Source: a virus. From it: 29,458 nucleotides of DNA. Of the stretch, positions 944 through 26,128 are shown in pieces (position 1 is the stretch's first letter; the number at the start of each line of letters is the position of its first letter). Below the pieces are notes generated by a model, which was not told the DNA's origin, ran no database searches, and saw only the letters and a list, made by a program, of their open reading frames with translations. The translations under genes and the position numbers were made by a program. The DNA lies in IMG/VR virus record IMGVR_UViG_3300030118_006141, positions 1 to 29,458 of that record; one strand, given 5' to 3'.

Positions 944-3900
944 TATGCTAATGCGATTGTCCTAAAGTCTTTTAGACGAACGGGAACTGATTCGTTCGTT
1001 GAAGTCATGACAATTTTAATAACAAATCCATTAAACTCCTCTAAATCATCAACAGAGAATTGATATTCAGAAAATTCATTAAACCCATTTGGTGCAACAA
1101 ATGCATCTGGTCTACCATCATTTAATGAGGTATCAATAATTTCATTTCCAAAACCATCACCAGTTGTGTCAGTCATATTTTTAAAACCAGGAAATGGTCT
1201 ATAAGTTTGTGATACTTCACTAGAATCAAAACTGAATAAACGATAGAATACTCTGAAATCTGCTTCTGGTTCTCTGCTTGCTGCGACAAGAACTTTTAGT
1301 GAAGTAGCAGGATTCTTTAATGTCACTGGTTTTGATACAAATACAGAACCATGTGGATCATCTCTTAGAGATTTAACTCTTTCATCAGTTGCATAATTGT
1401 CTTCGCCAATAGGATTGTTTATTTTATTTCTACCTAGAATAAAGATAGAATTTTTAACATCTAATACAGGTGATAAATTAGAATCGGCAGATGACATGTC
1501 AACATTTAAAGTTAATGATTTATTTTTAGGTAAATTTTGTAATCTTTCACTTTCATTCTTAACAGATGCAACTAATCTTGGAGTTGGGAAAAATGTTGTT
1601 TCATTTAAAGTTGTTGGACTAAAACCTTGATCTATAAATGAAATTTCGTTTCCACCAGCACTAGTTCCACTAACTGTTCTTATAAATGAGTTAACATTTG
1701 TTGATTTGCCAGGTGTGATAACGTTCAATTGTGCTGAAATAGAACTGAACTGATGATTTTGCGATACGTGAACACTCTTTCCACCAATCGCTTTTTCATT
1801 TGTAAAACATAATAAAGCATCATCTGTTCTTTCAGGTGCTAAATTAGCTACATCAACTTTTAAGAAATAATTATCAATATTATTATCAAATGAAGCAGTA
1901 TCAGCAGTATCAAATGTTGTATTAATACCAACAAGAGATATTCCACTTGCTTCATAAGTTTGAATATCTGATCCAACATCATGTGATACTGGTGTTGTTC
2001 CAAATTGTCCTCTAACAATTGTTAATTTGCCAGTTCCAACTACATATGAAACGATCTCACTTCCTATTAAAGCAGAACCTCTATCTGTAGTAATACCATT
2101 AAAACTAGTAAATGGCGTTACATCAGCGTTAGCGATTTCAACAGATGTTGTATCAGGAGCTAATGCAGATGTTGTTTGCACTTTAACAGTATCAGGTTTT
2201 ACATTTTGAACCACAACTTTATTATTTCCACCATGATGAGCATGATTATATTGTGTAACTTCAAATACATCGCCCGTATTTAATTCACCATTAATTGCTG
2301 ATGATGCAACGGTTGCCTCTGAAGGATCTGTTGTATCAATAACTGATGGATTAGTATTATTTGAATCATATTTTACAAGTTTACGACCAGTTGTAAATTG
2401 TGATCCTTGAACATCAGTTAAAAATACAGTATCAAATTGAGAATTGATTGCTGATACTGAGCATTTAAATCCAGCACCACTAGTAATATCAGTATCATTA
2501 GCGTTATCAATTGTTAATACATCACCAACTTGATATCCAGTTCCAAGAGTAGTGATAGTGATTGCACTTATTGCACCATCAACTCCATCCACTGTGCCTA
2601 CTGTAATTGTAGCAACAGCACCAGATCCACTTCCTGTTAAAGATTTAAGAGGAACACCAAGTATTGTGCCACCAGAACCAGGATATCCACTACCTTTATT
2701 AATGATAGTAGTCGAAGATCCACTGTCAATAGGTGCTCCTTGTCCTTCAATAATACCTGTTATTGCAGAATCCTCTGCAACTGTCTGTCCGAGTCCATTA
2801 GCTTGGGATACTTTTTGACCGATTGCTAAATTAGCATCAGTGCATAGTGTTCCTGATACACCAACTTTAAGTTTTCTAGGTAATGTTCGTATCGGATTAT
2901 CAGGAAGTTTCTGAGTATTTAAATTACCAGGATTGATTGGTGTGTTATAGAACGTTGCAGTTCCAGAACTTACGAATGATGCCTTACGTAACTTAAAGCA
3001 CAAATCTTCATATTGACTTGGTGTCCAAATCGTACCATTCTGTGATTTAAATAGACTTCCACCAATATATTGTTTTGATACAACAACATCCTCAACATCA
3101 GGTAAGACAGTTGATTTAACGGTCTTTTCACCCATTCGAGCAACCCACATTTCATACAAATCAGATGCTGGTGATAATATTACAATTGCATATTCTCGAT
3201 TAGGTTCCAAATAAACAGGAGATGGGAAACTGATAGTAGTTGGCACTGATGCGTCATCAGATATGTTTACCTGATTTGGATTCAGTGCTACTTGTGCATA
3301 ATCCTGAACAAGGAACCTTGTAGGTGTACCTAATTCTACATGTCTAAGTTCAATATAAACTTTAGTATTAGGATCTTTTGATGCAAAGAATAAATCAAAA
3401 GATGTCAAAAATGCTCCTGTCTCATCAACTCTAAATGATTGAGCTAGTGGATCTCTATAAGGTGCCTCAAAAAATTCTGTGTCTGAGGAAGAATTAACAT
3501 TAACAGTTACATTTACTTCATTTGGTCTCTGAGGAGGTGCTGGAGGGTTTCTAACACCAACAGTATCTGTTGTTTGAGTTAATATGGTTCCTGTGCCTGT
3601 AAACACACCTGTAGCGTCACTGGCCAGTGCTGTAGCACCTGGTAATTGTATTGTGCCTTCAGAGGCTGCTGTTACTTTAAATGTTTTTGTCCCAGATCTG
3701 AATAATACAGGTGGTTGAGGAACAGCATTTGCATTTCTAAAGAAGAATGAACCAATTAAATCACCCCAGTTATCTGATATAAGATTAACATTTGTGATTC
3801 TAGCAACAGCACCACTTTTCTCCCCAATTACCAACGCACCTTTTACAAAATACCCAAAGTATTGCTCATCATTTGCTAACGCAGCAATATCAACGTTTAA

Positions 3901-8497: not shown

Positions 8498-10081
8498 TTA
8501 GAACTCTAATACGATTTTAATGTCCTCTTTTTGACGGAGACTTCTGTTGATTTCAGGTCTGTTATCCAAATAGATAATTTGTCCCGACCCTTTATTTATC
8601 TCTGAATCAGATAACCCTGCTTGAAATCTAGTTCCTAAATTGATTAATTGGGCACCAGATGGGTTAGTTGTAATACCTGAAAATGCAATTTCAACTTTTC
8701 CAGAAAATCCAGATGATGAACCATTTATATCATTAATAATAGAACCAGTTTCAAATTGATATATCCTTCCAGTTGTATTCACACCAACTTCATCAGTATG
8801 ATCAAATGTTGTATCATTAAAATATAATGATCGATCCCTAAAATATTTAAGGACTCTAGTGGTTTCATCATAAGAACTTACATATCCCTTTGCAACTTTT
8901 CCGTCATTAGGAGGGATTGTAAGTTTTTGAGTTATTTCTTCACCAATTTTAGGTGGAACACTTGTGTTACTAAATTCTTGTAATTTAATTGCTTGTAATG
9001 AAGAAAAGGTATTGTCTGTATATACAACATCACTATCAATTTTAGTGGGATTCTTAACTATACCTACTTGTGAAAATGTGGTATCTACAGGAAAATCTTT
9101 AGTAGAATCATCAAATCTTGCATAAAGAAGCACTTTATCAGTTCCCAATTCACTATAAATATCATCTCCATGACCTCTAGCTGGTGGAATAATGGGGATT
9201 AATTTTGCCTTTACATCTGCATTATTATTATAAGTTGATAAATCAACACGAGCCCATGTATATCCTTTACCTCCTGCACTTACGGTAACATTAGTTATTT
9301 TTCCATCTTCTATATCAATTCTTGCTCTTCCTCCAGTGCCATCACCTACAATATCTACTTCTGCACCCACTACATCAGGGGCATATTTATTACCAGAGTT
9401 TTCAATAAAAATGTGCTTTATTTGATTTGAATTGATATTAGAATTACCATTTTCACGCACTGCTCTTATCTGTGCATCAGTGCTTGTTGACCAATTATTT
9501 GGAACTGTTATAAATTCAGTTGAATCAAACTTAATAGTATCACTAGAAGGGACAGTAAATAAGTACTTCCATACATAACCATCACCACTGTTACCTGCTT
9601 TTGATGGTTCTGTACCTTCAAAGGTTGGTTCATCCTGTGAAACGTTACCTAGTGGATTAGAACCTGTAGAACCGTTATCAATGCAAATATAAACTTTTAG
9701 TTCAGAAGTTACAACATAATAATTTGCATCATATAATCGTGTTGCCGATGAATTTGGACTTGGACTTGATGCACTATAATCATCCCTATAAATTTCATAT
9801 CTTGTTCCCTGAACCCATTCTATTCTCCTTATCAATCTTCTAATGTTAGCAGATGATACTTTTTTACCGAACATCATCGTGTCACCTGCATGCCTTCGAT
9901 ATGAAAAACTATCAGATGGTGCTGGTGTGTTTATATTCCATTCATCAGATCTACCAAACCCATTTTCTTTAGGATTTGTTAAACCTAAAAAGACATAATA
10001 AGAATTATTTGTATCTTGTACGGAATTTACAAAATTATTTGCATTCAAAATTCTGAATTGATCAGTAATAATAGCTGACAT
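8498..10081 (-). CDS. 8: Baseplate wedge subunit gp8-like protein, 527 aa
   Basis: A 527-residue protein that I recognise as a T4 gp8-type wedge component. The N-terminus has FRILNANNFVNSVQD followed by YYVFLGLTNP, then WVQGTRYEIYRDDYS, LYDANYYVVTSELKVYICID and GDGYVWKYLFTV. These 'vYvc.. / gy.WkYLy' elements are the most conserved part of the family. T4 gp8 is 334 residues, so this copy is longer; the extra length comes partly from a GxGY beta segment (NSGNKY and AGGKGY, about residues 230-275). In T4 gp8 is a dimer on the wedge contacting gp7, gp10 and gp6. The gene has its own late promoter box 28 nt upstream and is followed one base later by the DUF4815 gene. Confidence 0.88.
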   Translation of the reverse strand: MSAIITDQFRILNANNFVNSVQDTNNSYYVFLGLTNPKENGFGRSDEWNINTPAPSDSFSYRRHAGDTMMFGKKVSSANIRRLIRRIEWVQGTRYEIYRDDYSASSPSPNSSATRLYDANYYVVTSELKVYICIDNGSTGSNPLGNVSQDEPTFEGTEPSKAGNSGDGYVWKYLFTVPSSDTIKFDSTEFITVPNNWSTSTDAQIRAVRENGNSNINSNQIKHIFIENSGNKYAPDVVGAEVDIVGDGTGGRARIDIEDGKITNVTVSAGGKGYTWARVDLSTYNNNADVKAKLIPIIPPARGHGDDIYSELGTDKVLLYARFDDSTKDFPVDTTFSQVGIVKNPTKIDSDVVYTDNTFSSLQAIKLQEFSNTSVPPKIGEEITQKLTIPPNDGKVAKGYVSSYDETTRVLKYFRDRSLYFNDTTFDHTDEVGVNTTGRIYQFETGSIINDINGSSSGFSGKVEIAFSGITTNPSGAQLINLGTRFQAGLSDSEINKGSGQIIYLDNRPEINRSLRQKEDIKIVLEF

Positions 10082-10134: not shown

Positions 10135-13100
10135 TTATTCTGCAGTTAATTCTGCTCTAATCGAACCACTATTTCGATGACCTGTTTCACCAACTCCATC
10201 ATAATTTTTTCTTTGAATAGTTGGGAATGTTGAAAGACCAGCATCTACTGTCAATCCAGTGACACCAATTGATATGGGATTGGATGAACGTTGCAGATCG
10301 TTCCCTGAATCTGAACCGTATAATCTACCCCAACTTAGTTTACCCAGTGAAGTTGTCGATGCTTTATTCTCTTCAAAAAATCCCTCTTCATCAATACCGT
10401 TGATAGAACTAGCACTATTTGAATGGACATGACAAATAACCGTGCCTTTTGCACCACCAATACTGTAATCAACAGAATTGACAATATAAACATTATCAAG
10501 GAAAGTTGTTCCGATACCAACTACATGTGCGTCTGTAGGATTTACAGATGTTAATCCATGTCCAACTTTTGTATCTGTAATCAATATAGGGAAACCAACT
10601 TCAAGTATGCTTGCATCAGGAGCATTTTTGAATCTTCCAAAATTCGGTGAATCTGTATCTGTTTCCCTAACCACTGCAGTGAAATCAAATCTTAACGCAG
10701 GTTTACTGCCTGGTCTAGTTATTTGTGTAATACCTGTTATGATTCCAGTATATCCTTCAAAATTAGCAATACCTGTTATTTTTTCATATTTGAATGGAGG
10801 ACTCTCTATTATAACTTTTGGTGGATTATTTGAATCATATCCAAGACCCCCATCGGTAATTTGATCAAAAGCGACTGAACCATTAGAAACTGTAAGTGTT
10901 GCTGTTGCTGTATTTCCTACACCAGCACCAATACCTGAAGGTGGTGCTGCTATTCTTACATCAACTGTGCCATCATATCCAGAACCTGATTCTATAATAG
11001 TTAATGAAGAAATAGTGCCAGTCCCAGATACATTTGCTATTGCAGATGCAGGTGTATTTACTTCACCTGATGACACTAATGCGTCTACTCCACTAACAGT
11101 GAGTCCATATCTTGTTTCAAAGAAAAATGATTGGGCATCATCAACAAAAATACTATTATCACCTTGCACTCCCAATCCAGATGTAGTTGTAAAGTCACCA
11201 ATTATTTTAGATGTAGGATAAATTTGAGGTTCTAATATAGATCTTGATTTAGAAACTAATGTTCCATTAATAGTTAAATCTCTTTTTTGTTTCATCCATT
11301 TTACTGGTTTTTCATTTAAATCATCAATCCCCAATCCTGTGTAAATATCGGTGTCTAATATGTCTGTATTAAGTATTTCTTTGACAACTCTTGAACTAGT
11401 TTGTGATGTTGTTATTCCAGATGATCTATCACTCTTAAATATACGAAGTTCATCACCAATTTTAACTGTTTCTGGAACAACTTGTATCTTAACATCTTTA
11501 TTATCTTCACCTTTATAGAAATAGATATCAACTTGATCATGATCATTCAATCCTTCACCAGTTTCACCTTGAGGAGGTTCTTTAAATGTAAATGTTGTTC
11601 CACCATTAAATTGATAAGATTCGCCAGGTTTTTGTAAAACACCATTCACAAATACGAGTAATACTGCATCTAAGTCGATTAATGCAGAAAGATCATTTGA
11701 TCTATCTTTTTCAAAACTTAATAGTTCACCATTAAAGAATAATGGGAATCTAGTTCTTTGTCCGTCTTGTAAGAACTTTATATTGTCAATTGAATCAATT
11801 TCACCAAATTGCCAAGCAGAAAACTTATCATTAAATATTTCAAGAACTTCCAATTCAAATTCTTGTATTGGTGCTGATAAATGTGCAGCAGTTACAAGAC
11901 CAACAGGTTTGAATTTGTCTCCTTTTTTAAATGAATATCCTGCTCTTGCTATTTCAAATTTACTAATCGTGAATAAAGTTGAACCAATTCCAACAGATGT
12001 TGTTGCTGTTCCAACATCAACATTTAATAATAAGTTAGCACCTGTTTCTTCTGTAGGTCCAACACCCAATCTTGATATACCTACCACTTCAAGATTTTCA
12101 TAGATTGGTTCAGGTATATTAATCTGTGGATTTACATATCCAGAACCTGGATTTGTTATTGTAAATGCAAGAGTTCCTCCTACACCTACAGTTGCTTCTA
12201 CAACAGCACCAGTACCACCGCCACCACCAGGTCCAACATTAAATGTAATTGAATCTATAGATGTTGCTCCTACACTTACAAATGAACCAGCAAATGGATC
12301 TGAGTTAGGGAAACTAGTTTTAGATACTGCACGAGGATATGGATGATTACCTAAAAATCCATCTTTAGAACATTTGAATACGATTCCACCAGTATCAATA
12401 CCAACTGTTTGACCCGTAATGAATGTATGATTTGGTATGACTAATGTAAGAAGTCCACTGTGAGATTCGTAAATTGCATCAGTTGCAGTGAATGCATCTC
12501 CATTGTAAGCAGTTTTTCTTATAGAACCTATACCCGAACTTACAAATTTATGTTCATAAGCAATATCTGTAACACCTATTGCAACAGTGCCACCACGATA
12601 ACCTGATCCGAACGTTAAATCTTCAAAGAATTCAAAAGCATGACCACCACCTTGATAAGTATGTGGTATTGTGCTAGCACCTGCCTGTACCTCAAAACTT
12701 CTTTCAGATACAATACCAACAACAAATAATGGTCTTTCATGATCTTGGAAAATAGTTGTTGTAACACCCACATATCCACCACCACCAATAGTTTGAACAG
12801 CTGTATCTGTCGCTGAAACAAAGTTATGAGGATATTGATCACCAGGTGCAGATGCACCAACATTTACTCTAAATGTATTTGTTGTGACATTATCTACTGT
12901 TAAATATTGATTTGCTGCAGGGTCAGTTGCTCTTGGATAGGTTTTAGGTTGACTAGGATCTAATGTGCAAGTGAATGTGAATGAATCAGTTTCAAGAACC
13001 ACAGCATCACCATTTACTAATCCGTGATCATTAAGTGTAATAACTAGATTACCATTTGATGTATCATATACTGCATCTGTTACTGAATTAATTTGATTAC

Positions 13101-16100
13101 CATCCTCATCTTGACCAACTATATCTTTGGGGCATTTAAATTCAAGATTCTTCAATTTAACTGTAGTGGGTCTGTCTAATGCAAATCCATGAACATCATT
13201 TGTCGTTACTGTAATAATGCCTGATGTATTATCATATACAGCAGTTTGAATACCTAGATTGAATCCAGAAGATGTTCCAATTCCAACAATTCCTGTCAAT
13301 TCACCAGATGCATTTTTCTCTGCTATTACCTTTGCACCTACTAATGGTGCATATCCTAATCCTGGTGTTGAACCTAATGATACAATTAGACCACCTCTTG
13401 GTATTTGATTTTGATTAATATCATCAGGAGACACAATAAATGAACCATCTGTTGATGTAATACCAGTAAATCTTATTGATGATATTCCAGCTATGGTATC
13501 TGCTACAATTTTATAATTGTTTTTACTAGAACTTGCAGTAAACGGTCTTTGATATACTCCATTAATGAATACAACACCGTTTCCTATCTGCACACCAGCA
13601 GATGTATTTGCCCCTCCTACCTTTAAAGTATAGTTTGTTGTAAGACCAGTAAAATTATCAGATATGTCATCAAATAGCATATTTGTTTCATAATCTTGTC
13701 TTGTAAATGTTCTTCCACTAAAATCTGCTTTTACAAAAGGTAATTCGGTATCTGTTTTTCTTGAACGTGTATTACCTTTAGGTGGACTGACAAAATGAAC
13801 ACTACTATCAACAATATTAAACGAACCTCTATGTACTCTAACCAAATCACCAACATCATGAGATGTAGCACCGATACCCAACACTCCCCTTTCGACTCTG
13901 ACTGTTGGAACTGTTGATAAACCTTCTGATATGTTTTGTTGATCGTCTATTTTCCCGCTTCCATCAGATGTGCTTGAAAATCCAACTTCAATTATTTTCA
14001 TAAATTCATCATTTATCTTTAATATATCAGATGTTGCGATTGAACCAATTCCACTGAGCGAGAATTGTGAAGTTCCAGTGCCAATACTAACATCTAATGT
14101 ATGAGTTAAAGATGTGAATGTAACTGGTTGTTGTACAATACCATCTAATCCAATCATAGTTTTAGATAATTTTTTAGTCATATTCAACTTATGACGATTA
14201 CCTGAACCCACACCAGTAAAGGTTATCGCAACACCAGATGTTATATCATCTCTTGTTGGGAATAATTGGAACTTGTTAATATCACTTAAAACTTTTACAA
14301 AAACAGTTGAGGGTAAAATATCTGTTGTTAGACCAACATTATTTACAGTTGAACCAATAGAAACTGGTGTGGCAGCAACACCCACAAAAGATGAACCAGG
14401 TGTATATTCTAATTCCTCATTTGTATTGAAGAAATGATTTGGTATTGTAAATGTACCTGTTGATTTTTCTAATCCAACACCATCGGGATTAAATGTTTTA
14501 GTGTAAATTGGTGTTCCTTCATGTTTTAATTCAAACTCTGTTTTATCAGCTCTCTTACCTTCTAAACCATCATATGCAGATAATAATACACTTTGTGTTA
14601 CATTACCGTAAGATAAATTTAATGGATTATTGCTAAAATCTTGGTCAGTGTAAAATACTTGATTATATGCTTGAACTTTAACCTCATCAGTAATATCTGA
14701 ATCAGGCACAAACGATATACTAATATCATCACCAACTATTGAAGAGGTAAATGAACCTATTCCTGAAGTTGAACCTAATGAAACATATGGATATTGCACA
14801 ACTAAAATATCACTATCATCTCTAATTGCTGTAACTTGATGTATTGCAGAAGTTTGTCCAGCAGATACTTTAACTAGAGATTTAATTGAACTATCAATTG
14901 TTTTATCAATAGAAGCAAAACTAATTGGTGTTGCAGTTCCCTCGTTAAATGTAGATTCAAATCTTATACTCCTTTCAGTTTCTGAAGGTTGCCCTTGAGC
15001 TAAGAATCTATGAGTTCCAATACCAGCGGTTGTAGTTCCTAAACCAACTATACTTGATTTTGTGTTTATATTATTATTCCTATCATTTTCAATTTGCAAT
15101 TTAACTAAACCGTTTTCCAATTTAGATGTTATAATTCCAACTTTATTTGTAGAAATTCCTATTACATCATCAGAATAAATTTGTGATAAAGATGTGTTAA
15201 CACCATCAAAATCAAGTAAAATTTCATTATAATTATATTCTTTGGTTACTGTATCTTGCACAAATATATTTGCTTGCAATCCATTAAATTCATCTTTATC
15301 AAACTCAAAAATTGATGTGGTGCTGTTTGAATTAGCATCTACATTAGCACTTATTAAGTTGATGCTACCAATAACATTTGTGGTAGTTCCTAGTATATCA
15401 ATATCATAAAAGGTTTTTAATATTTTGATATCATGATCTCTTGTAAATTTTTCAACAGGTTCAAATAACAGATTTACAGTGTCAGTATCTGTCGTTTCAG
15501 TTTTAAATTCACCTAATTTTAAATTACCATCAGTATTATCTTCTCCTACTCCAGCAGTATCACTTGTTTTTTCAAGTAGTATAACATCATCCTCAGTTGT
15601 TAAAACAATTATTTCACTTAATTGTGTATCAAATGTATCAGGATCTACTACTTGAATAAGATAATTTACAAATCTACCATTTACCGTATCAATAACACTA
15701 TTATTTGCAGAAAAACCAACGCTTGAAAATCTACCACTAATATCATCATGCATTATCACTCTATTTGTTATGCATTTATTAAAGTTGGTTAATCTTCTTG
15801 TAGAGAAAAGAATAGATTTTGTTTTATTTTTTAATCTTTCATAATCTCTTACATAATCAAAATTATTAATTGCGTCTACACGATTATCATCACTTACAAG
15901 ATCTAAAATAAAATTCCTTATAACTTCATTTGTTTTTGATGAACGAACATCTACTCGACTCTGTATGAATGTATCTGCAAAATTCTTTAATCCTGAAGGA
16001 TGAACGATACTATTGACACTATTAGAAAATTGATCCCAAGTTATTGGACTTTTAACAGAATAAGATAAATTTTGATAGTAATCATTATCAGGTATAACTT

Positions 16101-19100
16101 GCACATCTTCATTTAACTTACCGATATTATTGATCCAACCATATTCCCTACGATTTGAAAAATCAATAGAAAAGAAACCTTTATCAGATTTAAGAGCAAC
16201 CACCTCAGCTGAAACACCTGTTGTTCGACCTGTAATTCTATCCCCTATACTAATTAATTGCAATCCATCTAATTTTATGTAATCATCTCGTGTTTCAATA
16301 ACTGATACATCAACTTTCTCGTCATTTAGTAATAATTTTTCATTTAATTGGAAAACACCTCTTTTCTGAACTGGCACTATATTTGGATATTTTTGTTTAT
16401 TGATTATAGATGCAAATCCAGATTGAAATGTTACTGCAATTCCTGGATTTGTACTCAATCCTGCAACACTATACTTCACGATAACTTCAGTTCCGCCAGT
16501 ATACTCTTCAACTTTAAAGAATTTAAAATTATAATCAGAAGAGTTAAATCCATCCCCTGATTCATCTACTCTCTGTATACCCTCAATAAATATTTCATCA
16601 CCGACTGCAAATGGTTCAGGATTAAATCCGCTAAATGGAACTTGCATAAAACATTCTATCAAACCCTGTTGATTAATTCTTATAGAGTTGATACCTATTC
16701 CATTTGAATTGTTAATTGCAAATATTTGATGTGATGTAGAATCTAACCCATGAATAGGTGCTATCAAATTGATATCTGAAATTGTCTGGTTAGGACTTAT
16801 AGCTAGTATTGAAGAATCATCTATAATTTGATTCGTAGATGGATTAAATAAGATTAAATCAGGTGGTGTGGTATAATCAGAACCACCATTAACAATTTCA
16901 ATTTCAGAAATAGTATCTAAATTATCAATATTTAAAATTGAAGGTATAAAAACTTCAGGTTGTAGTGTTTTATCAGATGAATATTCATACCCTATATCAA
17001 GTATTCTTGTTTTTTTAACTCTACCGATATCGTTAGATCTAATCACTAAATTAGCATTTGTGCCCTCTTCAGATAATACAGTATTAAATTCTGGTAATTT
17101 TTTGTAATTATATCCTTTTGAAATAATATTTAATTTTTTAATACCACCTTTAACGTTTTTTGAACTTGTTGAATATTCAATTTTTTCACAATCTTCTTCA
17201 TTATAAGTTAAAAATTCAGGTAATTTTGGTGAGAAGTTAAATGTCTCAGATGTAACTTCTGATATTTTATATTCACCATTATACACACTATCAAGGAAAA
17301 TAATTTGGGAATAATTTTGCACATCGTTATCTGCTGTGCTGATAAAACCACCCTTAGTAATACCATAATATAATACTGATGGTGTTGAATTTGTAGGTTG
17401 TAAAGTTAATGTTGCACCTTCAGGATTAAAAATATCAGTCCCTAAACCAATAGTACCCGCTACACCAACATTAAATATTGATGAATCTTGAGAACTTAAA
17501 AATTCATTACTGCCATTTTGGTAAAATATTTTGAAATCAAATTCAGCAAGAGTGGTTGTTGATAATCCAAACTTAATTTTTGAATTTTTATAGACCTTAA
17601 TTTGAGGGTTTATTGGTGATATAGTTTGCTCACTTCCACCTGTATTTGGAATTATTTCGATTAATCTTATTGGATTTGCAAATAAATCCTTATATGTCTC
17701 TGCTAATTGGAAATATCTACTATTAATTTTATTAATAAAATAAGATCCTGTGCCTAAACCAGCACTTCCTTCATAAAATACTTTATCACCAGTGTTAAAT
17801 CCATGATCCTCTATATCAATTCTATTTGATTCAACATCAGCATTTGTAAATTTGATTGGATTAATTAATAATTTTTCAAATTCAGAATTATAATTTACTT
17901 CAATAGGCACAGTGGTTCCTATCCCAACTGTCAAATTTGGCACGACATTTATTTTAACAATATCACCATTTTGTAAATTATGTGTTGTTGTTTCAGCAGC
18001 AGCAACTTTTGTTGTTACTGTGCTTACAATTTTATCAACAGCACCAGTTACTTGATTGAATTTTGAGGATATATTATAAAGAAAAGTGGATAATCCTACA
18101 ACAGCACTTGCATTTGAATTAAAATATAACCCATCACTTGTATTACCAACACTAACTGTAGAAAGACCAATATAATTTTCACTTTTTTTAATTACAAATA
18201 ATTCAATTTCAGTGTCTAACGATCCATATGGTATCGCAAAGTTACCGTCAGTATCATTAGGATCACCAGTCATAGACACATTAATCTGTCGATTGGGCAC
18301 AGGTGGAACTGTTAATATTACCTTTTGTCCAGTTTCAAAAGGATGATTTGGAAGATATATTTGCCTATTTGGTATTGAAACCGATTCAATAGTTTCACCA
18401 ACTAGATAATCAGTGCTAATTCCAACTCCATCAGTACCAACTCCTATAGATTGAACTGAATTGAAATATACTACATCGTTCAATTGTGAATCAAATTTTT
18501 CAGTTTTTACTGGAATAGATATTATATTATTCAATAAATCAACGTTTGAACCAAAAGTATGACCCGCCCCGTTAATACGTCTTAATGAACGAATTATTTT
18601 TAAATCTTCGTAAACATTCAATACTTCGATAATTTCATCATTTAAAGCGTTACCAGAACCAACTCTAATACTACTACCTACTGAAATATTTTCTGGCAAT
18701 TGATTAACAAAAATATCTTCAACTACACTACTTAACCCAACAATACTCATGCTTTTTGCTAAAGCAACACGAGATGTGGTAACACCTACTTTAAATGAAT
18801 CTGTTAGATTTTGTATTGATGTGCTTAGACCAGAAACAAAGACAAAATCTTGATCATTTAGTTCAATAAAAGGTTTATAATTTCCTATGACAGTATTCTG
18901 ATTTTGTCTAGTAAATACTAAATCTTCAAATCTATCTAATGTAGTTTCAATACTAGAAACTCCCAATCCAACTATTTCACCAACTTCAGCACTAAAACCT
19001 TGACCATTTGTGCCCGTTTCATTAAAAGAAGTAAGATCACCAACTTTATAATTTTGACCTGGATTTAATATCTCAATATTATCAATTTCACCCTTTAAAA

Positions 19101-22100
19101 CTGATAACACCTCTGCTGATTGTAAAGAATTTTCATATGATTCAATTAAGAAATCATTATCAGCAAATCTTTCTCCAACATTATAAGGATAAGTATTTCT
19201 TTTTAAATTTGAATTATTGAAATCAAAATCTTGATTTAAATTTAGATTATTTTCAGTTAAAGATGATCTAAATGTTCTTCCTATAAAATAAGGATAAACA
19301 CCATCAATTTCACCATTATTATCTAATTCAATAGTAGCAAAGTATGCATAAATTCCATTTGGAAAATCAGGTGTTTTACAGAATCTTCCATTATGAATAT
19401 CTAAATCACCAGAGTTATCAAAAATAAAATCGTCAATAAACATTCCATCGGCAAATCCAACTGGTCTATTTTCAACTAGGTTAATATCTTTACTATATGA
19501 AGACTCTAAAAGTTTTAATTCTGAATTGATATCATCAGGATCGCTGTAACCAGTTGGTCCATAAATTGGATTTCCATCATATGCCCATCCTATAATAGGA
19601 GAATGTTTTTGTGGTTTTTCATTTATTAATTCAAAATCACCATTTTCTAAATTGCTTAATAATGATTCATTACAACTAAGCACATTATAACTTAAATAAT
19701 CATCTCTTGTAATTAATGATGTAGATTTTTCTCTAAAATGTTTATTTAATTTTAAAATTCTTATAGACGAATCAAAATTAGCATTTATTCCCCTTGTAAC
19801 TACATCAGCAGTTGTAGTTGCTTGGTCGTATCCTATGCCACTGCTGATGACTATAGCATCTATTAACCTACCTTCTGATATTATGGGCCTTACAATCGCT
19901 CCTTCACCTGTTCCAGAGGAATTAATTATTATGTCTGGAATAGAGTTATATTCCATTCCCTGATCTAATACTGCTACATCAACTACTTTACCATTTTCAA
20001 TTATTGGTTTCACACCTCCTAATCTACCATTTAAGATATCAACTTTTGGATTAGAAAGATTATTTACAATTGTAGATCCATAATCTGAACCTTCCTCATA
20101 TAGATAAGCACCAGTAAATGAACCTGTAATTATGGGAGTTACATTAAAAGAACCAGTAACATTACCATTATAAACAACTTCAATATTAACTTTGATATCT
20201 GGATAATTAAATGTTTGATACCCTGTTCCAGTAGAATTTAAACCAACAAATTTACCTCTTTCAAAATCAACCCTTGAAGTACCACCTACTCCTGCATTTG
20301 CAAGTCTAAATGAATTATCATCTATTTTCATTACATGGTAGGATAATGTGGTATCTAATCCTTGAATCGCTTTTGGTATTGTAGAACCAATACCAACTGT
20401 TGGTGAGTAATTAACTAAATCACCATTTTTGAATCCATGATTATTAAAATTAATAGTATCATAAGAGGTTGATATACCGCTTGGTTTTACATGTAATTTA
20501 CGATGTTGATATCCACTACCAGAATTTAATACATTAATACTTGTTATAGTATTTTTTGATTCTGTTCTAAAGGAATGATTACCTGTTGCAGAAGAATCTG
20601 TTGCTAAACCTACTGTATTAATTCCAGCAATACCTGCTAATGCGTCATTTTTCTTATTAAAAATTCTGATGGTTGTTGGATTAACAACTCGCACAAAATA
20701 TGGATCTGAATTACCCAGTGAACCTGTGATCTCAAATATTGGACTATATGCACTACCAATTCCAAGAGAACTATTACCATTATTTTGATAATAAACTAAC
20801 TGACCATCCTCTAATTTATGTGGATCATTAAAGGTAATTGTTTCATTAACAATATCAACACCACCACCAAATTCTATTTTTCTACTATTAAAAAATACCT
20901 CTCTATATCTCGCACCAACATTTGCTTCTAATTCACAACCTTCACCATTTAATCCTGTTAATGATATACTTTTAACTGATTTTATATCAAAATCCTGTGG
21001 GTCAATTAATACTTCTCTAACTGAACCACTTAATATTGGTTCAGCAAAAGCACTTGAAGCAGAACCAACAGTATGAGCAATACCTGGTTCTATGAGTAAC
21101 TTGGGAGGATTAACTATATCGTAATTCTCTCCAGCATTTATTAAATTTATTGAAGTTAAATTTCCATAAATCACAGAATCTTCAGATAAAGGAGACCTTA
21201 TCTCTACACCATTAGTTAATAATCCAATATCACCTATAGTTTTATCATTTGTAGATTTATCAATTAAATTTTGTGATAATGGGAATTTTCTAAAAATCTT
21301 ATTTGCACTTATTTTCTTATTATGATGCCTTAATAAAGTGAAAGTATGTTCATCTTTTGTTGATATACCTAGACCAACCTTTACAGTGCTAGCACTTCCT
21401 ATTTGTCCTCTTGAAGCGTAAAGAGCTATTTTTGTAATATTTGTGTTAGATGGTGCTGGTTGTGGATCAACATAATAAATCTGACCGTCATTTAAACCTG
21501 TTATCAATTCACCTAGACTAGGTGTGGTAGTTGTGCTAGGATCTTTAATAGAATTGTAAACAACAGCATCTCCCTCTATAAATTTAATATCTCTAATTGG
21601 ATCAAAATGAAATTGTAATATACTATACAAACCAGTTATTGGATCTTGACTACTTGGATCAAATGGAAAGTTATCAGTGGTATTAGCCATTCCAACTATT
21701 GTTTCTTTAATAACATCATCATCTATATCAAATTTTGGAAGTGAATTGGATGCAACATATCCATCAGTATCACCGTCAACATACACGTTCAAAACATTTG
21801 AGATAATTGATTCATTACCTTCTCTTATTTCTACCTCTGAACTGGTTGCTTTATCTACAACTCTACGAATATCATACTTCTCGGTATCTACAGGAGTAAA
21901 ATTTGGATTTTCTGCAAATTCAAATTGCTTTGAGTTTAATATATTTTTAACAATTAAAGAGTCAATAACTGTTTGTTCACTTCTTCTTAAAATATTAAAT
22001 TTGTCACCCACTCTAATAGATGACTTATCAATTAAAGTGTTTAAAGTTACAATTGAATCTTTTATACTTTCAGTTTGAAATCTTGAACTGGTATTGTATA

Positions 22101-23727
22101 TCCATGAGTTAGCAAATATTTCTTTATAATTTTTTCCCTCATTACGTATTTTTACACCCAAATTCTTTACACCTATATTTTCACCCTCATCAATTAAATT
22201 AACACGATCATCTACTATTAATTGATCTAAAACTCCTGTAACTCTTAATTCAATTTTTTTAGATAAATCCCCATCTTCATATCCAAAAATAAAATCATTT
22301 GAACGAACATCATCAGTTATTTCAATTGGATGACTAATACCTGTGCACCCAAAGAATTGATTAACTGATTTAGATGTATAGTTAATTGTGTTATTACCGC
22401 TAATTATTATCCCTGTCTTTGCAAATCCTACTGTTGAGTCAACTGATATTACAGAATCACTTGTTGACACTCCTGAGATAACTTTTGTGTATGGATTAAC
22501 CTCAAATACTCCCTTTATTAAGTCTCTATCACTATAACCTACAAATAGAGATATACGATAATATGATTTTCCCCTCTCATTTAATATTTCTACCTCAGAT
22601 ACTGAAGCGTTTGTTTTTAGATCATCACTTTTGTAAATTGTCTGACCAATTAATTTTTGTGGATCTGCATCTGGGGTTATCAAATCAGCGATTATAACTT
22701 CTCTTCTTATAAATTCTGCACCAGATGGTTTGATTAAATTTCTTTCAAGATCAAGTATTGTAGAATCAACACCATACAATACCTTGAATAATATCTTTAT
22801 TGACTCTTCAATTCCTTTTGATTGGTAAAAAGAACGTGCAAACTTAACAAAATTACCGACATCCAAATCAGATGTAAATTTAGTATCTTCAAAACCTGGT
22901 AAAAACGTTTTCTTTAATTTTTTATAAAATTCTTGTATGAATAATACTGATAGATTTTGAACAGTAGAACCACTTATATGATTATCTGCCCTTGTTTCTT
23001 CAAAATTAACTTTTTCCTTATTGACATCTAATAGAGAAGATGATACTCCTACATTATATCCTGTGATACCACTGAATCCACGTATACAACCAGTAAAGAA
23101 AAATCTTTCTCTAAAAAAAGCAAATTTGCCTGTTGTAGGATTATTTTCGGTTGGATTTAAAGTTGTGGTAATGACGTTATCAACAGTTATTTTATCGTCT
23201 TCAATTTTAGCGACTCTAGTTCCTTTTGGAACATTTATAAATTCATTATCGCTTAAATGAGGTGGTGGTGTTATTAATTCTACAATATCATTGACTTTGA
23301 TATCTAGACCCTTGGTAGGTAAATTTAAGACTTTACTGGATTTAGATGTAAAATTAGCGTTCACAGAGCTAGATTTTAACTCTACTGTTTTTTCTTTACC
23401 AGTATAAGTGATAATTTCATCATTAATTTTTAATAGACCATATTCATCAGGGTATCCCTTTGAATTTTCGACTTCTATCGTTTTATCAGTTGATGCAATA
23501 CCAGTAACTGTGCTGGTTTTTCCAGTAACAACTTCTGGTACAAGATTATCACTTTTTAAATATTGATCTAAATTACTAATTAAATCAGTTGGACCTCCCT
23601 GAAATTCTTGAGAGATATAGTATTGTTTTAAAAATTCAACAGCATTAGGAAAATCACTAGTGACAAACTCTGGTAAGTGATTTTCAACTATTGTGTTGAT
23701 TTTTATTCTTTTGTCAAATTGTGACAT
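10135..23727 (-). CDS. Giant baseplate structural protein at the gp7 position, 4,530 aa, with YHYH-like domain and GxGY repeats
   Basis: An uninterrupted 4,530-codon frame between gp6 and gp8, where T4 carries gp7 (1,032 aa). The N-terminus (about 1-110) has IVENHLPEF, DFPNAVEFLKQYY and NLDQYLKSDNL, a segment I recognise from the corresponding large protein in marine T4-like phages. Around 1370-1465 lies a YHYH-like domain (GWAYDGNPIYGPTGY, then LDIHNGRF and PNGIYAYF). At least fourteen beta units of the form [N/D]xGxxYxxxPxxxI are spread from about 530 to 4290. A related His-rich module is duplicated near 3490-3830. The rest is Gly/Thr/Val/Ile-rich beta-type sequence with no transmembrane segment. 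SD AGAGGAAA precedes the ATG, three bases after the gp6 stop. It is probably a gp7-like wedge initiator with huge insertions, or an unrelated replacement of gp7. Confidence 0.88.
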   Translation of the reverse strand: MSQFDKRIKINTIVENHLPEFVTSDFPNAVEFLKQYYISQEFQGGPTDLISNLDQYLKSDNLVPEVVTGKTSTVTGIASTDKTIEVENSKGYPDEYGLLKINDEIITYTGKEKTVELKSSSVNANFTSKSSKVLNLPTKGLDIKVNDIVELITPPPHLSDNEFINVPKGTRVAKIEDDKITVDNVITTTLNPTENNPTTGKFAFFRERFFFTGCIRGFSGITGYNVGVSSSLLDVNKEKVNFEETRADNHISGSTVQNLSVLFIQEFYKKLKKTFLPGFEDTKFTSDLDVGNFVKFARSFYQSKGIEESIKILFKVLYGVDSTILDLERNLIKPSGAEFIRREVIIADLITPDADPQKLIGQTIYKSDDLKTNASVSEVEILNERGKSYYRISLFVGYSDRDLIKGVFEVNPYTKVISGVSTSDSVISVDSTVGFAKTGIIISGNNTINYTSKSVNQFFGCTGISHPIEITDDVRSNDFIFGYEDGDLSKKIELRVTGVLDQLIVDDRVNLIDEGENIGVKNLGVKIRNEGKNYKEIFANSWIYNTSSRFQTESIKDSIVTLNTLIDKSSIRVGDKFNILRRSEQTVIDSLIVKNILNSKQFEFAENPNFTPVDTEKYDIRRVVDKATSSEVEIREGNESIISNVLNVYVDGDTDGYVASNSLPKFDIDDDVIKETIVGMANTTDNFPFDPSSQDPITGLYSILQFHFDPIRDIKFIEGDAVVYNSIKDPSTTTTPSLGELITGLNDGQIYYVDPQPAPSNTNITKIALYASRGQIGSASTVKVGLGISTKDEHTFTLLRHHNKKISANKIFRKFPLSQNLIDKSTNDKTIGDIGLLTNGVEIRSPLSEDSVIYGNLTSINLINAGENYDIVNPPKLLIEPGIAHTVGSASSAFAEPILSGSVREVLIDPQDFDIKSVKSISLTGLNGEGCELEANVGARYREVFFNSRKIEFGGGVDIVNETITFNDPHKLEDGQLVYYQNNGNSSLGIGSAYSPIFEITGSLGNSDPYFVRVVNPTTIRIFNKKNDALAGIAGINTVGLATDSSATGNHSFRTESKNTITSINVLNSGSGYQHRKLHVKPSGISTSYDTINFNNHGFKNGDLVNYSPTVGIGSTIPKAIQGLDTTLSYHVMKIDDNSFRLANAGVGGTSRVDFERGKFVGLNSTGTGYQTFNYPDIKVNIEVVYNGNVTGSFNVTPIITGSFTGAYLYEEGSDYGSTIVNNLSNPKVDILNGRLGGVKPIIENGKVVDVAVLDQGMEYNSIPDIIINSSGTGEGAIVRPIISEGRLIDAIVISSGIGYDQATTTADVVTRGINANFDSSIRILKLNKHFREKSTSLITRDDYLSYNVLSCNESLLSNLENGDFELINEKPQKHSPIIGWAYDGNPIYGPTGYSDPDDINSELKLLESSYSKDINLVENRPVGFADGMFIDDFIFDNSGDLDIHNGRFCKTPDFPNGIYAYFATIELDNNGEIDGVYPYFIGRTFRSSLTENNLNLNQDFDFNNSNLKRNTYPYNVGERFADNDFLIESYENSLQSAEVLSVLKGEIDNIEILNPGQNYKVGDLTSFNETGTNGQGFSAEVGEIVGLGVSSIETTLDRFEDLVFTRQNQNTVIGNYKPFIELNDQDFVFVSGLSTSIQNLTDSFKVGVTTSRVALAKSMSIVGLSSVVEDIFVNQLPENISVGSSIRVGSGNALNDEIIEVLNVYEDLKIIRSLRRINGAGHTFGSNVDLLNNIISIPVKTEKFDSQLNDVVYFNSVQSIGVGTDGVGISTDYLVGETIESVSIPNRQIYLPNHPFETGQKVILTVPPVPNRQINVSMTGDPNDTDGNFAIPYGSLDTEIELFVIKKSENYIGLSTVSVGNTSDGLYFNSNASAVVGLSTFLYNISSKFNQVTGAVDKIVSTVTTKVAAAETTTHNLQNGDIVKINVVPNLTVGIGTTVPIEVNYNSEFEKLLINPIKFTNADVESNRIDIEDHGFNTGDKVFYEGSAGLGTGSYFINKINSRYFQLAETYKDLFANPIRLIEIIPNTGGSEQTISPINPQIKVYKNSKIKFGLSTTTLAEFDFKIFYQNGSNEFLSSQDSSIFNVGVAGTIGLGTDIFNPEGATLTLQPTNSTPSVLYYGITKGGFISTADNDVQNYSQIIFLDSVYNGEYKISEVTSETFNFSPKLPEFLTYNEEDCEKIEYSTSSKNVKGGIKKLNIISKGYNYKKLPEFNTVLSEEGTNANLVIRSNDIGRVKKTRILDIGYEYSSDKTLQPEVFIPSILNIDNLDTISEIEIVNGGSDYTTPPDLILFNPSTNQIIDDSSILAISPNQTISDINLIAPIHGLDSTSHQIFAINNSNGIGINSIRINQQGLIECFMQVPFSGFNPEPFAVGDEIFIEGIQRVDESGDGFNSSDYNFKFFKVEEYTGGTEVIVKYSVAGLSTNPGIAVTFQSGFASIINKQKYPNIVPVQKRGVFQLNEKLLLNDEKVDVSVIETRDDYIKLDGLQLISIGDRITGRTTGVSAEVVALKSDKGFFSIDFSNRREYGWINNIGKLNEDVQVIPDNDYYQNLSYSVKSPITWDQFSNSVNSIVHPSGLKNFADTFIQSRVDVRSSKTNEVIRNFILDLVSDDNRVDAINNFDYVRDYERLKNKTKSILFSTRRLTNFNKCITNRVIMHDDISGRFSSVGFSANNSVIDTVNGRFVNYLIQVVDPDTFDTQLSEIIVLTTEDDVILLEKTSDTAGVGEDNTDGNLKLGEFKTETTDTDTVNLLFEPVEKFTRDHDIKILKTFYDIDILGTTTNVIGSINLISANVDANSNSTTSIFEFDKDEFNGLQANIFVQDTVTKEYNYNEILLDFDGVNTSLSQIYSDDVIGISTNKVGIITSKLENGLVKLQIENDRNNNINTKSSIVGLGTTTAGIGTHRFLAQGQPSETERSIRFESTFNEGTATPISFASIDKTIDSSIKSLVKVSAGQTSAIHQVTAIRDDSDILVVQYPYVSLGSTSGIGSFTSSIVGDDISISFVPDSDITDEVKVQAYNQVFYTDQDFSNNPLNLSYGNVTQSVLLSAYDGLEGKRADKTEFELKHEGTPIYTKTFNPDGVGLEKSTGTFTIPNHFFNTNEELEYTPGSSFVGVAATPVSIGSTVNNVGLTTDILPSTVFVKVLSDINKFQLFPTRDDITSGVAITFTGVGSGNRHKLNMTKKLSKTMIGLDGIVQQPVTFTSLTHTLDVSIGTGTSQFSLSGIGSIATSDILKINDEFMKIIEVGFSSTSDGSGKIDDQQNISEGLSTVPTVRVERGVLGIGATSHDVGDLVRVHRGSFNIVDSSVHFVSPPKGNTRSRKTDTELPFVKADFSGRTFTRQDYETNMLFDDISDNFTGLTTNYTLKVGGANTSAGVQIGNGVVFINGVYQRPFTASSSKNNYKIVADTIAGISSIRFTGITSTDGSFIVSPDDINQNQIPRGGLIVSLGSTPGLGYAPLVGAKVIAEKNASGELTGIVGIGTSSGFNLGIQTAVYDNTSGIITVTTNDVHGFALDRPTTVKLKNLEFKCPKDIVGQDEDGNQINSVTDAVYDTSNGNLVITLNDHGLVNGDAVVLETDSFTFTCTLDPSQPKTYPRATDPAANQYLTVDNVTTNTFRVNVGASAPGDQYPHNFVSATDTAVQTIGGGGYVGVTTTIFQDHERPLFVVGIVSERSFEVQAGASTIPHTYQGGGHAFEFFEDLTFGSGYRGGTVAIGVTDIAYEHKFVSSGIGSIRKTAYNGDAFTATDAIYESHSGLLTLVIPNHTFITGQTVGIDTGGIVFKCSKDGFLGNHPYPRAVSKTSFPNSDPFAGSFVSVGATSIDSITFNVGPGGGGGTGAVVEATVGVGGTLAFTITNPGSGYVNPQINIPEPIYENLEVVGISRLGVGPTEETGANLLLNVDVGTATTSVGIGSTLFTISKFEIARAGYSFKKGDKFKPVGLVTAAHLSAPIQEFELEVLEIFNDKFSAWQFGEIDSIDNIKFLQDGQRTRFPLFFNGELLSFEKDRSNDLSALIDLDAVLLVFVNGVLQKPGESYQFNGGTTFTFKEPPQGETGEGLNDHDQVDIYFYKGEDNKDVKIQVVPETVKIGDELRIFKSDRSSGITTSQTSSRVVKEILNTDILDTDIYTGLGIDDLNEKPVKWMKQKRDLTINGTLVSKSRSILEPQIYPTSKIIGDFTTTSGLGVQGDNSIFVDDAQSFFFETRYGLTVSGVDALVSSGEVNTPASAIANVSGTGTISSLTIIESGSGYDGTVDVRIAAPPSGIGAGVGNTATATLTVSNGSVAFDQITDGGLGYDSNNPPKVIIESPPFKYEKITGIANFEGYTGIITGITQITRPGSKPALRFDFTAVVRETDTDSPNFGRFKNAPDASILEVGFPILITDTKVGHGLTSVNPTDAHVVGIGTTFLDNVYIVNSVDYSIGGAKGTVICHVHSNSASSINGIDEEGFFEENKASTTSLGKLSWGRLYGSDSGNDLQRSSNPISIGVTGLTVDAGLSTFPTIQRKNYDGVGETGHRNSGSIRAELTAE

Positions 23728-23730
23728 AAA

Positions 23731-25725
23731 TTATTTCCTCTCTAAAGCACCGTTTGAATAGCTTGAAGTAAAGTAGTCTCTTGTAAATACCACACCTGAA
23801 ACATCTTCTCCTGATGCAATTACGTCTTTCAACATATTTATCGAACTATTTGAAATGTCTAAACTTACGAATAAGTCTTTTAAACCAACGATATCATTTG
23901 ATTCAGGAAACGCTTGTATTTCGATAACATTATTATTTGCTAAAGTTGAGGTGATGTTTATTGTATTTAAAATTACCTCACCTTTTTTATAATCAACCGA
24001 ACCTGCTGCTTTGCGAAGAACGTTCACATTATTTTTTTCATCTCTAGTAACAACACTAATTGTTCCTTTCATACTACCATCAAGATTACCAGAAGCATCT
24101 TTATTTGGTATATCAGTTAAATATGCAATTGATGAACTTCCTGAAATTGTAAATCCAGTGCTTTTGATGTTAAAACCAGCGGGATTGATATGGAATTTAT
24201 TTCCAAAACATAACTCATACTGTGCAAATTGATTCAAAAGTGCTTGTAAATCTCTTCTAATAATGACTTTAGTGATATTTGATGTAATACCATCACTAAT
24301 TCTATCAATCAATTGATTTACCTTACTGTACTTAAATCTACCACCAAATTTATTCATCTCAACATTACTTGAATATTTTTGTAGTGCACCTATGATATCT
24401 GTTCTTAAATCAATTGAGGAACCAACTTTTAAAGGATCATAATACACGTTTGAATCAATTTCAACAAAAAGTATTTTAAGATCAATTATTTCAGAATCAA
24501 TACCTGCAATTGCATAACTTTTTAACTTACTTTTGATTTGAGATTTATCAAAATCTGACACAAAAGTACCATTTTTTGGTTTTATGCTTATTTGCACTTT
24601 TCCAAATTGAGGTGGGTCTAATTCTTCCCCTCCTATCACTGAAACTGAATCAGTTTGAGGATAGATTTGATTAATTATTGCCTCATAATCTCTTGGTGTA
24701 ACTGCCCTGTATTGTGCTGAGTAAAGTCTGGGTGCGAAATACTTAATAGAAGACACATCTTCAACTTCTGACCCGTTAGAAGCGTTAGAAATGGTCGTTA
24801 CTGATACAGTGTCTGATGGCACAAAGAATGTACCATCATCTTTCGCAAATGTTCCTTGGAAACTAAAATTAGTCGGACCATTCCCATCTTTTCCTTCAGT
24901 AACAATATAAGTTGCAAGAACTGTGGAACCATTTTTTAATTTTTTACCAAAAAAACCATCACCGAATAAAATTTCATATTTTTCGTCTTGAATTTCCTGT
25001 GATAAGAATATTTCTGAGTTTTTATCTAATTTTAATATATTATCAACTTTAGCATACTTTACTCCAATCGTAACTTGGTTTGGATCTGCAACATAGACAG
25101 ATAATGTCGATGCATCGATATTTGGACTATCAATAATAAATCTTTGATCTATAGCAGTGTTTACTCGATATGTGCGAGTCAAGTATGTTCCTTCATAAAT
25201 TGATATTTCATCGCCAAATTGAGCGAATGAGTGGTTAATTGGATTTCCATTCGCATCTGTCAGAATATTTCCGTCATTATCCACTCCTCTACTAACAATT
25301 CTTGTGGATGTGACATTTTCAGGAATCGAAAATCTATGAGTCGTATTTTCAACACTACCAACACAAACTAATCCAGATCTTAATATCAAACTTCTTGGAG
25401 TAGCATTAGAAGTTGGTCCAAGATCGATGTCATTTATCTTTATTTTTGCAATCGCTGCTCTTTTTGAACGTGGAACGTAACCAATATTTCTTGCAAGTGA
25501 AACAACATTTTCACGTATGACTGCAGAATCCAAAAATGATTCATTTGCAACTAAATTTGCATTAAATGAATTAATATAGGTATTATATGCTAAAGTATCA
25601 ATTAAAACAGAGAAATTGGAACCTTCAAAATCAAAATCAACAAAATTTGAATTTGATCGGAGAAAATCTTTGATCTGTGCTTTGATATCCTCAAAGTCTA
25701 AACTAGTATATTGAGTAAAAGGCAT
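23731..25725 (-). CDS. 6: Baseplate wedge protein gp6 (Baseplate_J-like), 664 aa
   Basis: A 664-residue protein, almost the length of T4 gp6 (660). The N-terminus has FEDIKAQIKDFLRSNSNF, GSNFSVLIDTLAYNTYINSF, ANESFLDSAVIRENVVSLAR and IGYVPRSKRAA, the classic pattern of gp6 and the gpJ family of baseplate proteins. Further on are the family elements 'ILFGDGFFGKKL' (about residues 252-263) and 'YRAVTPRDYEAIINQIYP' (about 335-352). In T4, gp6 dimers join adjacent wedges into the ring around the central hub and form the inner iris that opens on contraction. It starts one base after the gp25 stop and ends three bases before the giant gene. The assignment is strong. Confidence 0.94.
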   Translation of the reverse strand: MPFTQYTSLDFEDIKAQIKDFLRSNSNFVDFDFEGSNFSVLIDTLAYNTYINSFNANLVANESFLDSAVIRENVVSLARNIGYVPRSKRAAIAKIKINDIDLGPTSNATPRSLILRSGLVCVGSVENTTHRFSIPENVTSTRIVSRGVDNDGNILTDANGNPINHSFAQFGDEISIYEGTYLTRTYRVNTAIDQRFIIDSPNIDASTLSVYVADPNQVTIGVKYAKVDNILKLDKNSEIFLSQEIQDEKYEILFGDGFFGKKLKNGSTVLATYIVTEGKDGNGPTNFSFQGTFAKDDGTFFVPSDTVSVTTISNASNGSEVEDVSSIKYFAPRLYSAQYRAVTPRDYEAIINQIYPQTDSVSVIGGEELDPPQFGKVQISIKPKNGTFVSDFDKSQIKSKLKSYAIAGIDSEIIDLKILFVEIDSNVYYDPLKVGSSIDLRTDIIGALQKYSSNVEMNKFGGRFKYSKVNQLIDRISDGITSNITKVIIRRDLQALLNQFAQYELCFGNKFHINPAGFNIKSTGFTISGSSSIAYLTDIPNKDASGNLDGSMKGTISVVTRDEKNNVNVLRKAAGSVDYKKGEVILNTINITSTLANNNVIEIQAFPESNDIVGLKDLFVSLDISNSSINMLKDVIASGEDVSGVVFTRDYFTSSYSNGALERK

Positions 25726-25726
25726 A

Positions 25727-26128
25727 TTATCTCGTTGGTTCTAGTATAAAAGTAAAAGATTGAGTTGGCACTTCAAGTCCAACAATATCAAAAAGTACCT
25801 TAACCTCTAGTTCATTTAAATCTGGTCTTCCAATCACTTCAACACCAACATTTGACACCCTTGGTTCAAAATTAGTAACTGTTTCTCTAATTTGATCCTC
25901 AATAACATAAACTGTTGATCTTGAAAAGTTATCAAATAATGATTCACGTATGTCTGTACCGATTAAAGAGTTAAAAAACCTCTCAAAAGGTATTGTCTCT
26001 ACTAAATTTCTCACTGATCTGGCAATCGCACGTTCATTTAAGAGTATAGGAAGATCTCCCGTCACTGGGTGTGGTGAAAAAGACAAACTTATATCCTTAA
26101 ATGCTCTTGATTTGCGTTGAATCGCCAT
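25727..26128 (-). CDS. 25: Baseplate wedge protein gp25 (lysozyme-like/TssE family), 133 aa
   Basis: A 133-residue protein (T4 gp25 is 132) of the gp25/GPW/TssE family. It has the start motif FKDISLSFSPHPVTGDLPIL, then the helix with NERAIARSVRNLVETIPFER, and the signature EPR in NFEPRVSNV (about residues 87-95). The C-terminus is beta-structured (LEVKVLFDIVG...FTFILEP). In T4 and in type VI secretion systems this protein with gp6 and gp53 binds the baseplate core and helps start the sheath. A late promoter box lies 18 nt upstream, and the following gp6 ATG is one base past the stop. Despite the historical label of 'lysozyme', there is no lysozyme catalytic site here. Confidence 0.95.
   Translation of the reverse strand: MAIQRKSRAFKDISLSFSPHPVTGDLPILLNERAIARSVRNLVETIPFERFFNSLIGTDIRESLFDNFSRSTVYVIEDQIRETVTNFEPRVSNVGVEVIGRPDLNELEVKVLFDIVGLEVPTQSFTFILEPTR

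Follow-up and report, generated by a model that had tools for sequence, protein, structure and literature searches.

Among the abundant viruses of the sea are the T4-like phages of marine cyanobacteria and SAR11, for whose largest tail proteins annotation is mostly lacking. A viral fragment of 29,458 bases from IMG/VR (the whole stretch analysed here, termed the window) encodes a giant tail protein that, together with two neighbouring structural proteins, carries many short G..Y motifs. This raises the question of whether the motifs belong to a single beta building block, as the original prediction held, or are loops to be expected in glycine-rich proteins, and whether such a block is still being copied from gene to gene.

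The window derives from a P-SSM2-like (T4-like) marine myovirus. Its baseplate genes lie on the minus strand throughout, in an order that matches that of Prochlorococcus phage P-SSM2, and the gp8 proteins of the two phages are 62% identical. The window gp8 matches Phage_Gp8 (PF09215) at 68.4 bits against a gathering score of 25 and is aligned by Foldseek with T4 gp8 (1n7z) at E 5e-10. The giant protein contains a Pfam YHYH domain and is called gp7-like on the basis of phrog_2885 and gene order only, because its match to the Pfam model Baseplate_wedge (PF23786) reaches 20.6 bits and falls under the gathering score of 27. The DUF4815 protein is, judging from its 30% identity to the VrlC of Stenotrophomonas phage IME-SM1, a phage VrlC homologue. 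YHYH domains occur in the structural operon of pelagimyophages and cyanomyophages, phages in which T4 gp7 is missing and has apparently been replaced by VrlC (PMC7029224). The window phage possesses both VrlC and a gp7-like giant, though VrlC is said to replace gp7 (PMC7029224).

All of the strings originally quoted as copies were recovered on the minus strand: in the giant protein NAGENYDIVNPPKLLI at residue 864, NGGSDYTTPPDLI at 2280, NPGSGY at 3859 and DGGLGYDSNNPPKVII at 4292, in gp8 AGGKGY at 269, and in the DUF4815 protein NKGSGY at 1933 and TLGTGY at 1983. The proposed number of at least fourteen copies in the giant was too high, as only 12 of its 25 G..Y motifs are backed by comparison of orthologue profiles and about half of the 25 are non-members. 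Likewise the single interval in which the three-protein family had been placed takes in the giant copies alone (10792-21225), those of gp8 being located at 9221-9478 and those of DUF4815 at 2500-2766. At the level of sequence, the profiles support 12 copies in the giant, two in gp8 and one or two in the DUF4815 protein (Table 1).

Table 1. Baseplate-region genes of the window and the repeat units assigned to them, in order of position
Feature	Positions	Strand	Evidence and remarks
DUF4815 / VrlC-type structural protein, 2517 aa	943-8496	-	Pfam DUF4815 7e-57
DUF4815-1985 (TLGTGY), variant ending GYQVGDVLTI	2500-2634	-	HMM 16.7 bits; profile 95% to gp8-271, 92% to gp7-1557
DUF4815-1935 (NKGSGY), possible, weak	2647-2766	-	best profile match 36%; position kept in orthologues
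gp8 baseplate wedge protein, 527 aa, 2 units	8498-10081	-	Pfam Phage_Gp8 (PF09215) 7e-19
gp8-271 (AGGKGY)	9221-9352	-	HMM 37.8 bits; G270, G271 and Y274 invariant
gp8-230, divergent	9347-9478	-	G230 and Y233 invariant (68 orthologues); profile 96% to gp7-1257
Giant gp7-like baseplate wedge protein, 4530 aa, 12 units	10135-23727	-	phrog_2885 E=0; P-SSM2 gp7 orthologue
gp7-4294 (DGGLGYDSNNPPKVII), tandem with gp7-4248	10792-10929	-	HMM 36.2 bits
gp7-4248 (ESGSGY)	10933-11085	-	HMM 28.3 bits; leave-one-out 11.3 bits, over all controls
gp7-3861 (NPGSGY)	12097-12228	-	HMM 35.5 bits
gp7-2282 (NGGSDYTTPPDLI)	16831-16968	-	HMM 28.5 bits; leave-one-out 11.8 bits, over all controls
gp7-2246	16945-17064	-	HMM 10.4 bits; profile 95-96% to 1257, 1297 and 2282
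gp7-2205, divergent half	17092-17151	-	4.4 bits as single sequence; profile 77-89% to several gp7 units
gp7-1557, B-strand and GxGY half	19030-19104	-	HMM 12.0 bits; profile 92% to DUF4815-1985
gp7-1297	19795-19917	-	HMM 22.3 bits; profile 97% to gp8-271
gp7-1257, tandem with gp7-1297	19906-20040	-	HMM 23.8 bits; strands A, B and C in model; profile 95-96% to both gp8 units
gp7-1213 (LYEEGSDY), divergent	20032-20142	-	profile 90% to gp7-1257, 80% to gp8-271; strands in model
gp7-1070, B-strand and GxGY half	20503-20553	-	HMM 15.4 bits; held out of seed, recovered at 16.6 bits
gp7-866 (NAGENYDIVNPPKLLI)	21085-21225	-	HMM 12.7 bits; orthologue profile 72-95% to nine other units
gp6	23731-25725	-	
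gp25-like	25727-26128	-	gene order of P-SSM2

The giant protein contains 11 instances of the motif [ND]xGxxY where shuffled sequences average 2.0 (maximum 7 in 300 shuffles), but the excess is marginal in gp8 (2 versus 0.3) and not significant in the DUF4815 protein (1 versus 0.8), and motif counts therefore do not prove sharing; the proof comes from profiles. When profiles were built from window units only and each unit was left out in turn, six of the 14 held-out units outscored every control, so that the evidence of a single genome is only suggestive and orthologues are needed. Orthologues were aligned separately at 18 candidate sites and the alignments compared all against all, with controls taken from elsewhere in these three proteins. 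A probability above 50% was reached by 74 of 153 unit-unit pairs (above 90% by 28 of them), the corresponding figures being 1 of 216 for unit-control pairs and 1 of 150 for control-control pairs. The comparison yields a single group that comprises the 12 giant sites, both gp8 sites and DUF4815-1985, with DUF4815-1935 weak. It ruled out the giant G..Y sites at residues 531 and 3456, and the GxxY at 1167 is poorly conserved (0.32). Against reversed and shuffled controls, ten gp7 units, gp8-271 and DUF4815-1985 score over the control maximum of 6.9 bits; the others are supported through the orthologue profiles only. The half-units 1070, 1557 and 2205 as well as DUF4815-1935 are incomplete or weak when scored as single sequences.

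The modest leave-one-out result in the window, like the shortness and divergence of the units (pairwise identity mostly about 20-45%), is what might be expected if the motifs were convergent, that is, glycine-rich beta-turns of beta-rich proteins with no common descent. Such an origin is extremely unlikely, however, as the profile-profile scores far exceed those of control segments from the same beta-rich proteins and the conserved pattern spans three strands and a tandem period and not the turn alone. With a profile extended over 413 loci, which are all from phages apart from a few window pieces, 2,716 segments score more than 10 bits and the reversed proteins give none, a result that rules out general Gly-rich loop statistics.

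The GxGY motifs are part of one beta repeat of ~39-41 residues in the giant, gp8 and DUF4815 proteins. Its consensus is GxGsGAxaxaxV..G.I.sVtItngGsGYtsPPxVtI (profile consensus GDGTGATATATVSNAGKITSVTITNGGSGYTSPPDVIISNP), laid out as an A-strand GAxAxAxV, a B-strand GxIxxVxI, the GxGY and a C-strand PPxVxI. Among 129 copies less than 55% identical to each other, the first G of GxGY is conserved in 100% and the Y in 94%, followed by the first A (89%), the G that precedes strand B (84%) and the second P (73%). The pattern first proposed, [N/D]xGxxY followed by a Pro-x-x-x-I strand, is real but describes only the latter part of a larger unit, in which the A- and B-strands precede the GxGY.

This layout agrees with AlphaFold2 predictions for gp8 (mean pLDDT 82) and for residues 820-1340 of gp7 (pLDDT 86), each based on an alignment of 68, its rows chosen by hand. 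In the gp8-271 model, predicted strands at 252-258 and 261-269 are followed by a loop at 271-274 and a strand at 277-279; in protein numbering, gp7-1257 has strands at 1238-1244 and 1247-1255, a loop at 1257-1260 and a strand at 1265-1270, and gp7-1297 has strands at 1278-1284 and 1287-1295, a loop at 1297-1300 and a strand at 1305-1310. The predicted order common to gp8 and the gp7 fragment is an A-B hairpin, the GxGY loop and strand C, and this strand order in the DSSP strings supports a shared fold. Together with the comparison of orthologue profiles, the strand order of the two models bears out the proposal of one beta building block in three proteins. Foldseek matched the gp7 fragment to predicted structures of cyanophage gp7-like proteins (the best from Synechococcus phage Bellamy, E 1e-40), and among the solved structures of the PDB nothing matched below E 0.001.

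The giant protein also contains a second repeat that resembles NHGFxxGDxVxY, in about eight copies at residues 970, 1097, 1795, 1916, 1975, 3290, 3568 and 3767. Its segments include HKLEDGQLVYY, NHGFKNGDLVNY, NHPFETGQKVIL, DHGFNTGDKVFY, DHGLVNGDAVVL and NHTFITGQTVGI, and the corresponding regular expression matches 11 times in the giant versus 1.7 expected. It coincides with weak Pfam matches to an endosialidase beta barrel (1088-1116) and to E1_FCCH (1907-1951).

The first repeat extends well beyond the three genes. Every one of the eight other phage genomes tried gave matches to a profile built from only nine window units, the best at E 5e-12; they lie in gp7, gp8, DUF4815, the neck protein gp14, the hub lysozyme gp5 and tail fibres, and in phage IME-SM1 also in the tail sheath. 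A 219-aa array of six units from Synechococcus phage S-RIM8 matches 18 PHROG families, with baseplate wedge, head closure, hub lysozyme and tail fibre proteins represented; among the families that contain the unit are 701, 19630, 2885, 708, 460, 438, 1922 and 5342. In the T4-type phage RB51 no unit was found at E 10 by A4, a broader profile than the A1 that had matched all eight other genomes. RB51 gp8 and the window gp8 align in their cores, but across the units and as far as residue 490 only in stray fragments. A tblastn search of phages with an artificial two-unit consensus returned 3 records only, because pairwise searching is too weak for this unit. The same kind of consensus served to choose 80 bacterial and archaeal loci with arrays, in which the repeat period is mostly 36-44 residues, although spacing played no part in their selection. 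In a contractile sheath protein of Nostoc foliaceum (L487:2873-4975), six units are located between the two sheath parts. The Nostoc sheath gene is followed by two small ORFs, possibly for tube proteins, and may belong to a prophage or an injection system. Unit arrays are also found in proteins with multicopper-oxidase or PorU-like (type IX secretion sortase) matches from a Methanoperedens MAG (L441) and a Verrucomicrobia MAG (L443).

In gp7 and gp8, the G..[YF] of every member site is retained in 95-100% of 109-328 orthologues, while retention at non-member G..Y sites ranges from 5% to 98% and is high where other constraints act. When units were compared with those of P-SSM2, ACG-2014f, S-CAM9, B23 and S-RIM8, the best match was the orthologous copy in 57 of 68 unit/genome pairs, each with 21-36 candidates. 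The HMM detects the unit in 24 of 172 DUF4815 orthologues. A patchy gain was considered for this protein and rejected, as an alignment of the 34 nearest of 169 shows the site to be kept in divergent form. Copy number is more fluid: the C-terminal region of gp7 has 5-13 copies depending on lineage, and the 6395-aa gp7 of S-RIM8 has 24 units, with adjacent copies in runs being 27-58% identical. S-RIM8 (L092 / L102) additionally carries a 1550-aa gene with YHYH and seven units between gp9 and gp8, a layout absent from the window, and in Synechococcus phage B23 (L095) gp7 is divided between two neighbouring genes, one of 2846 aa and one of about 1080 aa, with units in both.

The occurrence of one family across several adjacent genes, the differences in copy number between gp7 orthologues and the S-RIM8 tandem run with neighbours 38-58% identical could be taken to mean that the units are actively mobile, as short DNA segments now recombining between neighbouring structural genes. 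This is very unlikely in view of the orthologous best matches and of the DUF4815 position, which is conserved despite its divergent copy; moreover, the three genes of the window contain no near-identical DNA copies of units, the best pair being 79% identical over 33 nt. Spread between genes must nevertheless have happened, because the unit occurs in at least 18 PHROG families. As orthologous positions are kept and near-identical DNA is lacking, which is not how a mobile element would look, the spread appears to be old and the units are now inherited in place. Of the proposal that the block is mobile and copied within and between neighbouring genes, an old spread between genes thus stands, and reaches far past neighbours, while ongoing copying in this lineage does not. 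Among related marine T4-like phages the unit positions are fixed, old and inherited by descent, and family membership together with vertical inheritance is regarded as close to certain.

The repeat family has no name in Pfam, NCBIfam or the literature searched: neither database has a model over the unit in phage or bacterial proteins, and a text search of openly licensed literature for the unit consensus strings found no paper. The PHROG clusters that contain the unit are clusters of whole proteins, none of which names or isolates the repeat. Its closest parallel in deployment may be the Ig-like domains of phages, which are similarly small beta modules carried by conserved virion proteins, on many unrelated carriers, placed off the assembly core and spread between phages. 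The unit differs in having 39-41 residues, about half the length of an Ig domain (a two-sheet sandwich of about 80-100 residues, which a tandem pair of units might build), and is characterised by tandem arrays of fixed period and the GxGY signature; no Ig-like Pfam or NCBIfam model was found over the units at E up to 1, nor up to 5. T4 gp8 (1n7z, 9f4a; PF09215) shares its core fold with the window gp8, but T4-type gp8 lacks the unit region and the window protein is about 190 residues longer, with two units. The BACON repeats of crAss-like phages (PMC6949934) are likewise a small domain in tandem in a phage protein, but a different and separately named one, to which the unit has no match here.

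It is proposed that the units are an old beta-repeat family that acts as an insertable spacer or decoration on the outward parts of tail proteins, a reading to which we give a probability of about 0.6. Each unit would be a self-contained beta module whose B-to-C turn is held by the conserved glycine and tyrosine. Alone or in a tandem array it could be inserted while sparing the assembly core, and it would lengthen, enlarge or stiffen the outward parts of the proteins. Insertion is seen relative to T4-type gp8 (RB51) and inside the Nostoc sheath protein. The outward location is suggested by analogy with T4 and with what is known of sheaths, whose extra domains, many of them Ig-like, lie away from the tail tube and have been suggested to aid stability or adhesion (PMC9230969). 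By the same analogy an inserted module would probably stabilise the tail or provide weak surface contacts. This functional part, with a stabilising or adhesive role, is held tentatively, at somewhat less than even odds. Copies would have moved between genes long ago via recombination; since then they have been passed on at their sites, copies being gained and lost slowly.

A related possibility is a role in the weak binding of carbohydrates or surfaces, for which many units would be displayed on the tail as adsorption aids, with the GxGY loop making the contact. Weak carbohydrate binding has been proposed for phage Ig-like domains (PMC9230969), and units are found in tail fibres, in the hub lysozyme and beside the YHYH domain of gp7. 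The sole match below E 0.1 in a sequence search of the PDB is furthermore the capsule depolymerase tailspike of an Acinetobacter phage (E 0.0084); the depolymerases Dpo31 and Dpo36 (28lx, 28mg, 8ck1) have two consecutive unit-like segments, which include GAGY and GGSGY, at residues 440-507, a weak likeness (E 0.008-0.04) seen in sequence alone and on a tailspike enzyme as carrier. Surface binding is nonetheless considered unlikely, since the near-invariant G and Y across phages suit a structural turn better than a host-variable site and units are also present in the neck protein gp14, distant from the host surface.

The spacer reading might also be extended to an undescribed, very widespread superfamily that serves as a universal insertable spacer of phages, contractile injection systems, bacteria and archaea, a step judged somewhat less likely than not. 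If true, the differing lengths of giant tail proteins, among them the gp7 proteins of cyanophages with their 4,000-6,400 residues, would be due in part to one 40-residue module. A repeat that profiles can recognise in wedge, hub, neck, fibre and sheath proteins would provide a domain map for giant tail proteins, and it ties together at least 18 PHROG families that have separate entries. A Pfam-type model of the unit would annotate phage structural genes as well as bacterial and archaeal repeat proteins, and the unit itself may serve as a handle, to be cut and tested, on the purpose of the extra mass in the tails of marine T4-like phages.
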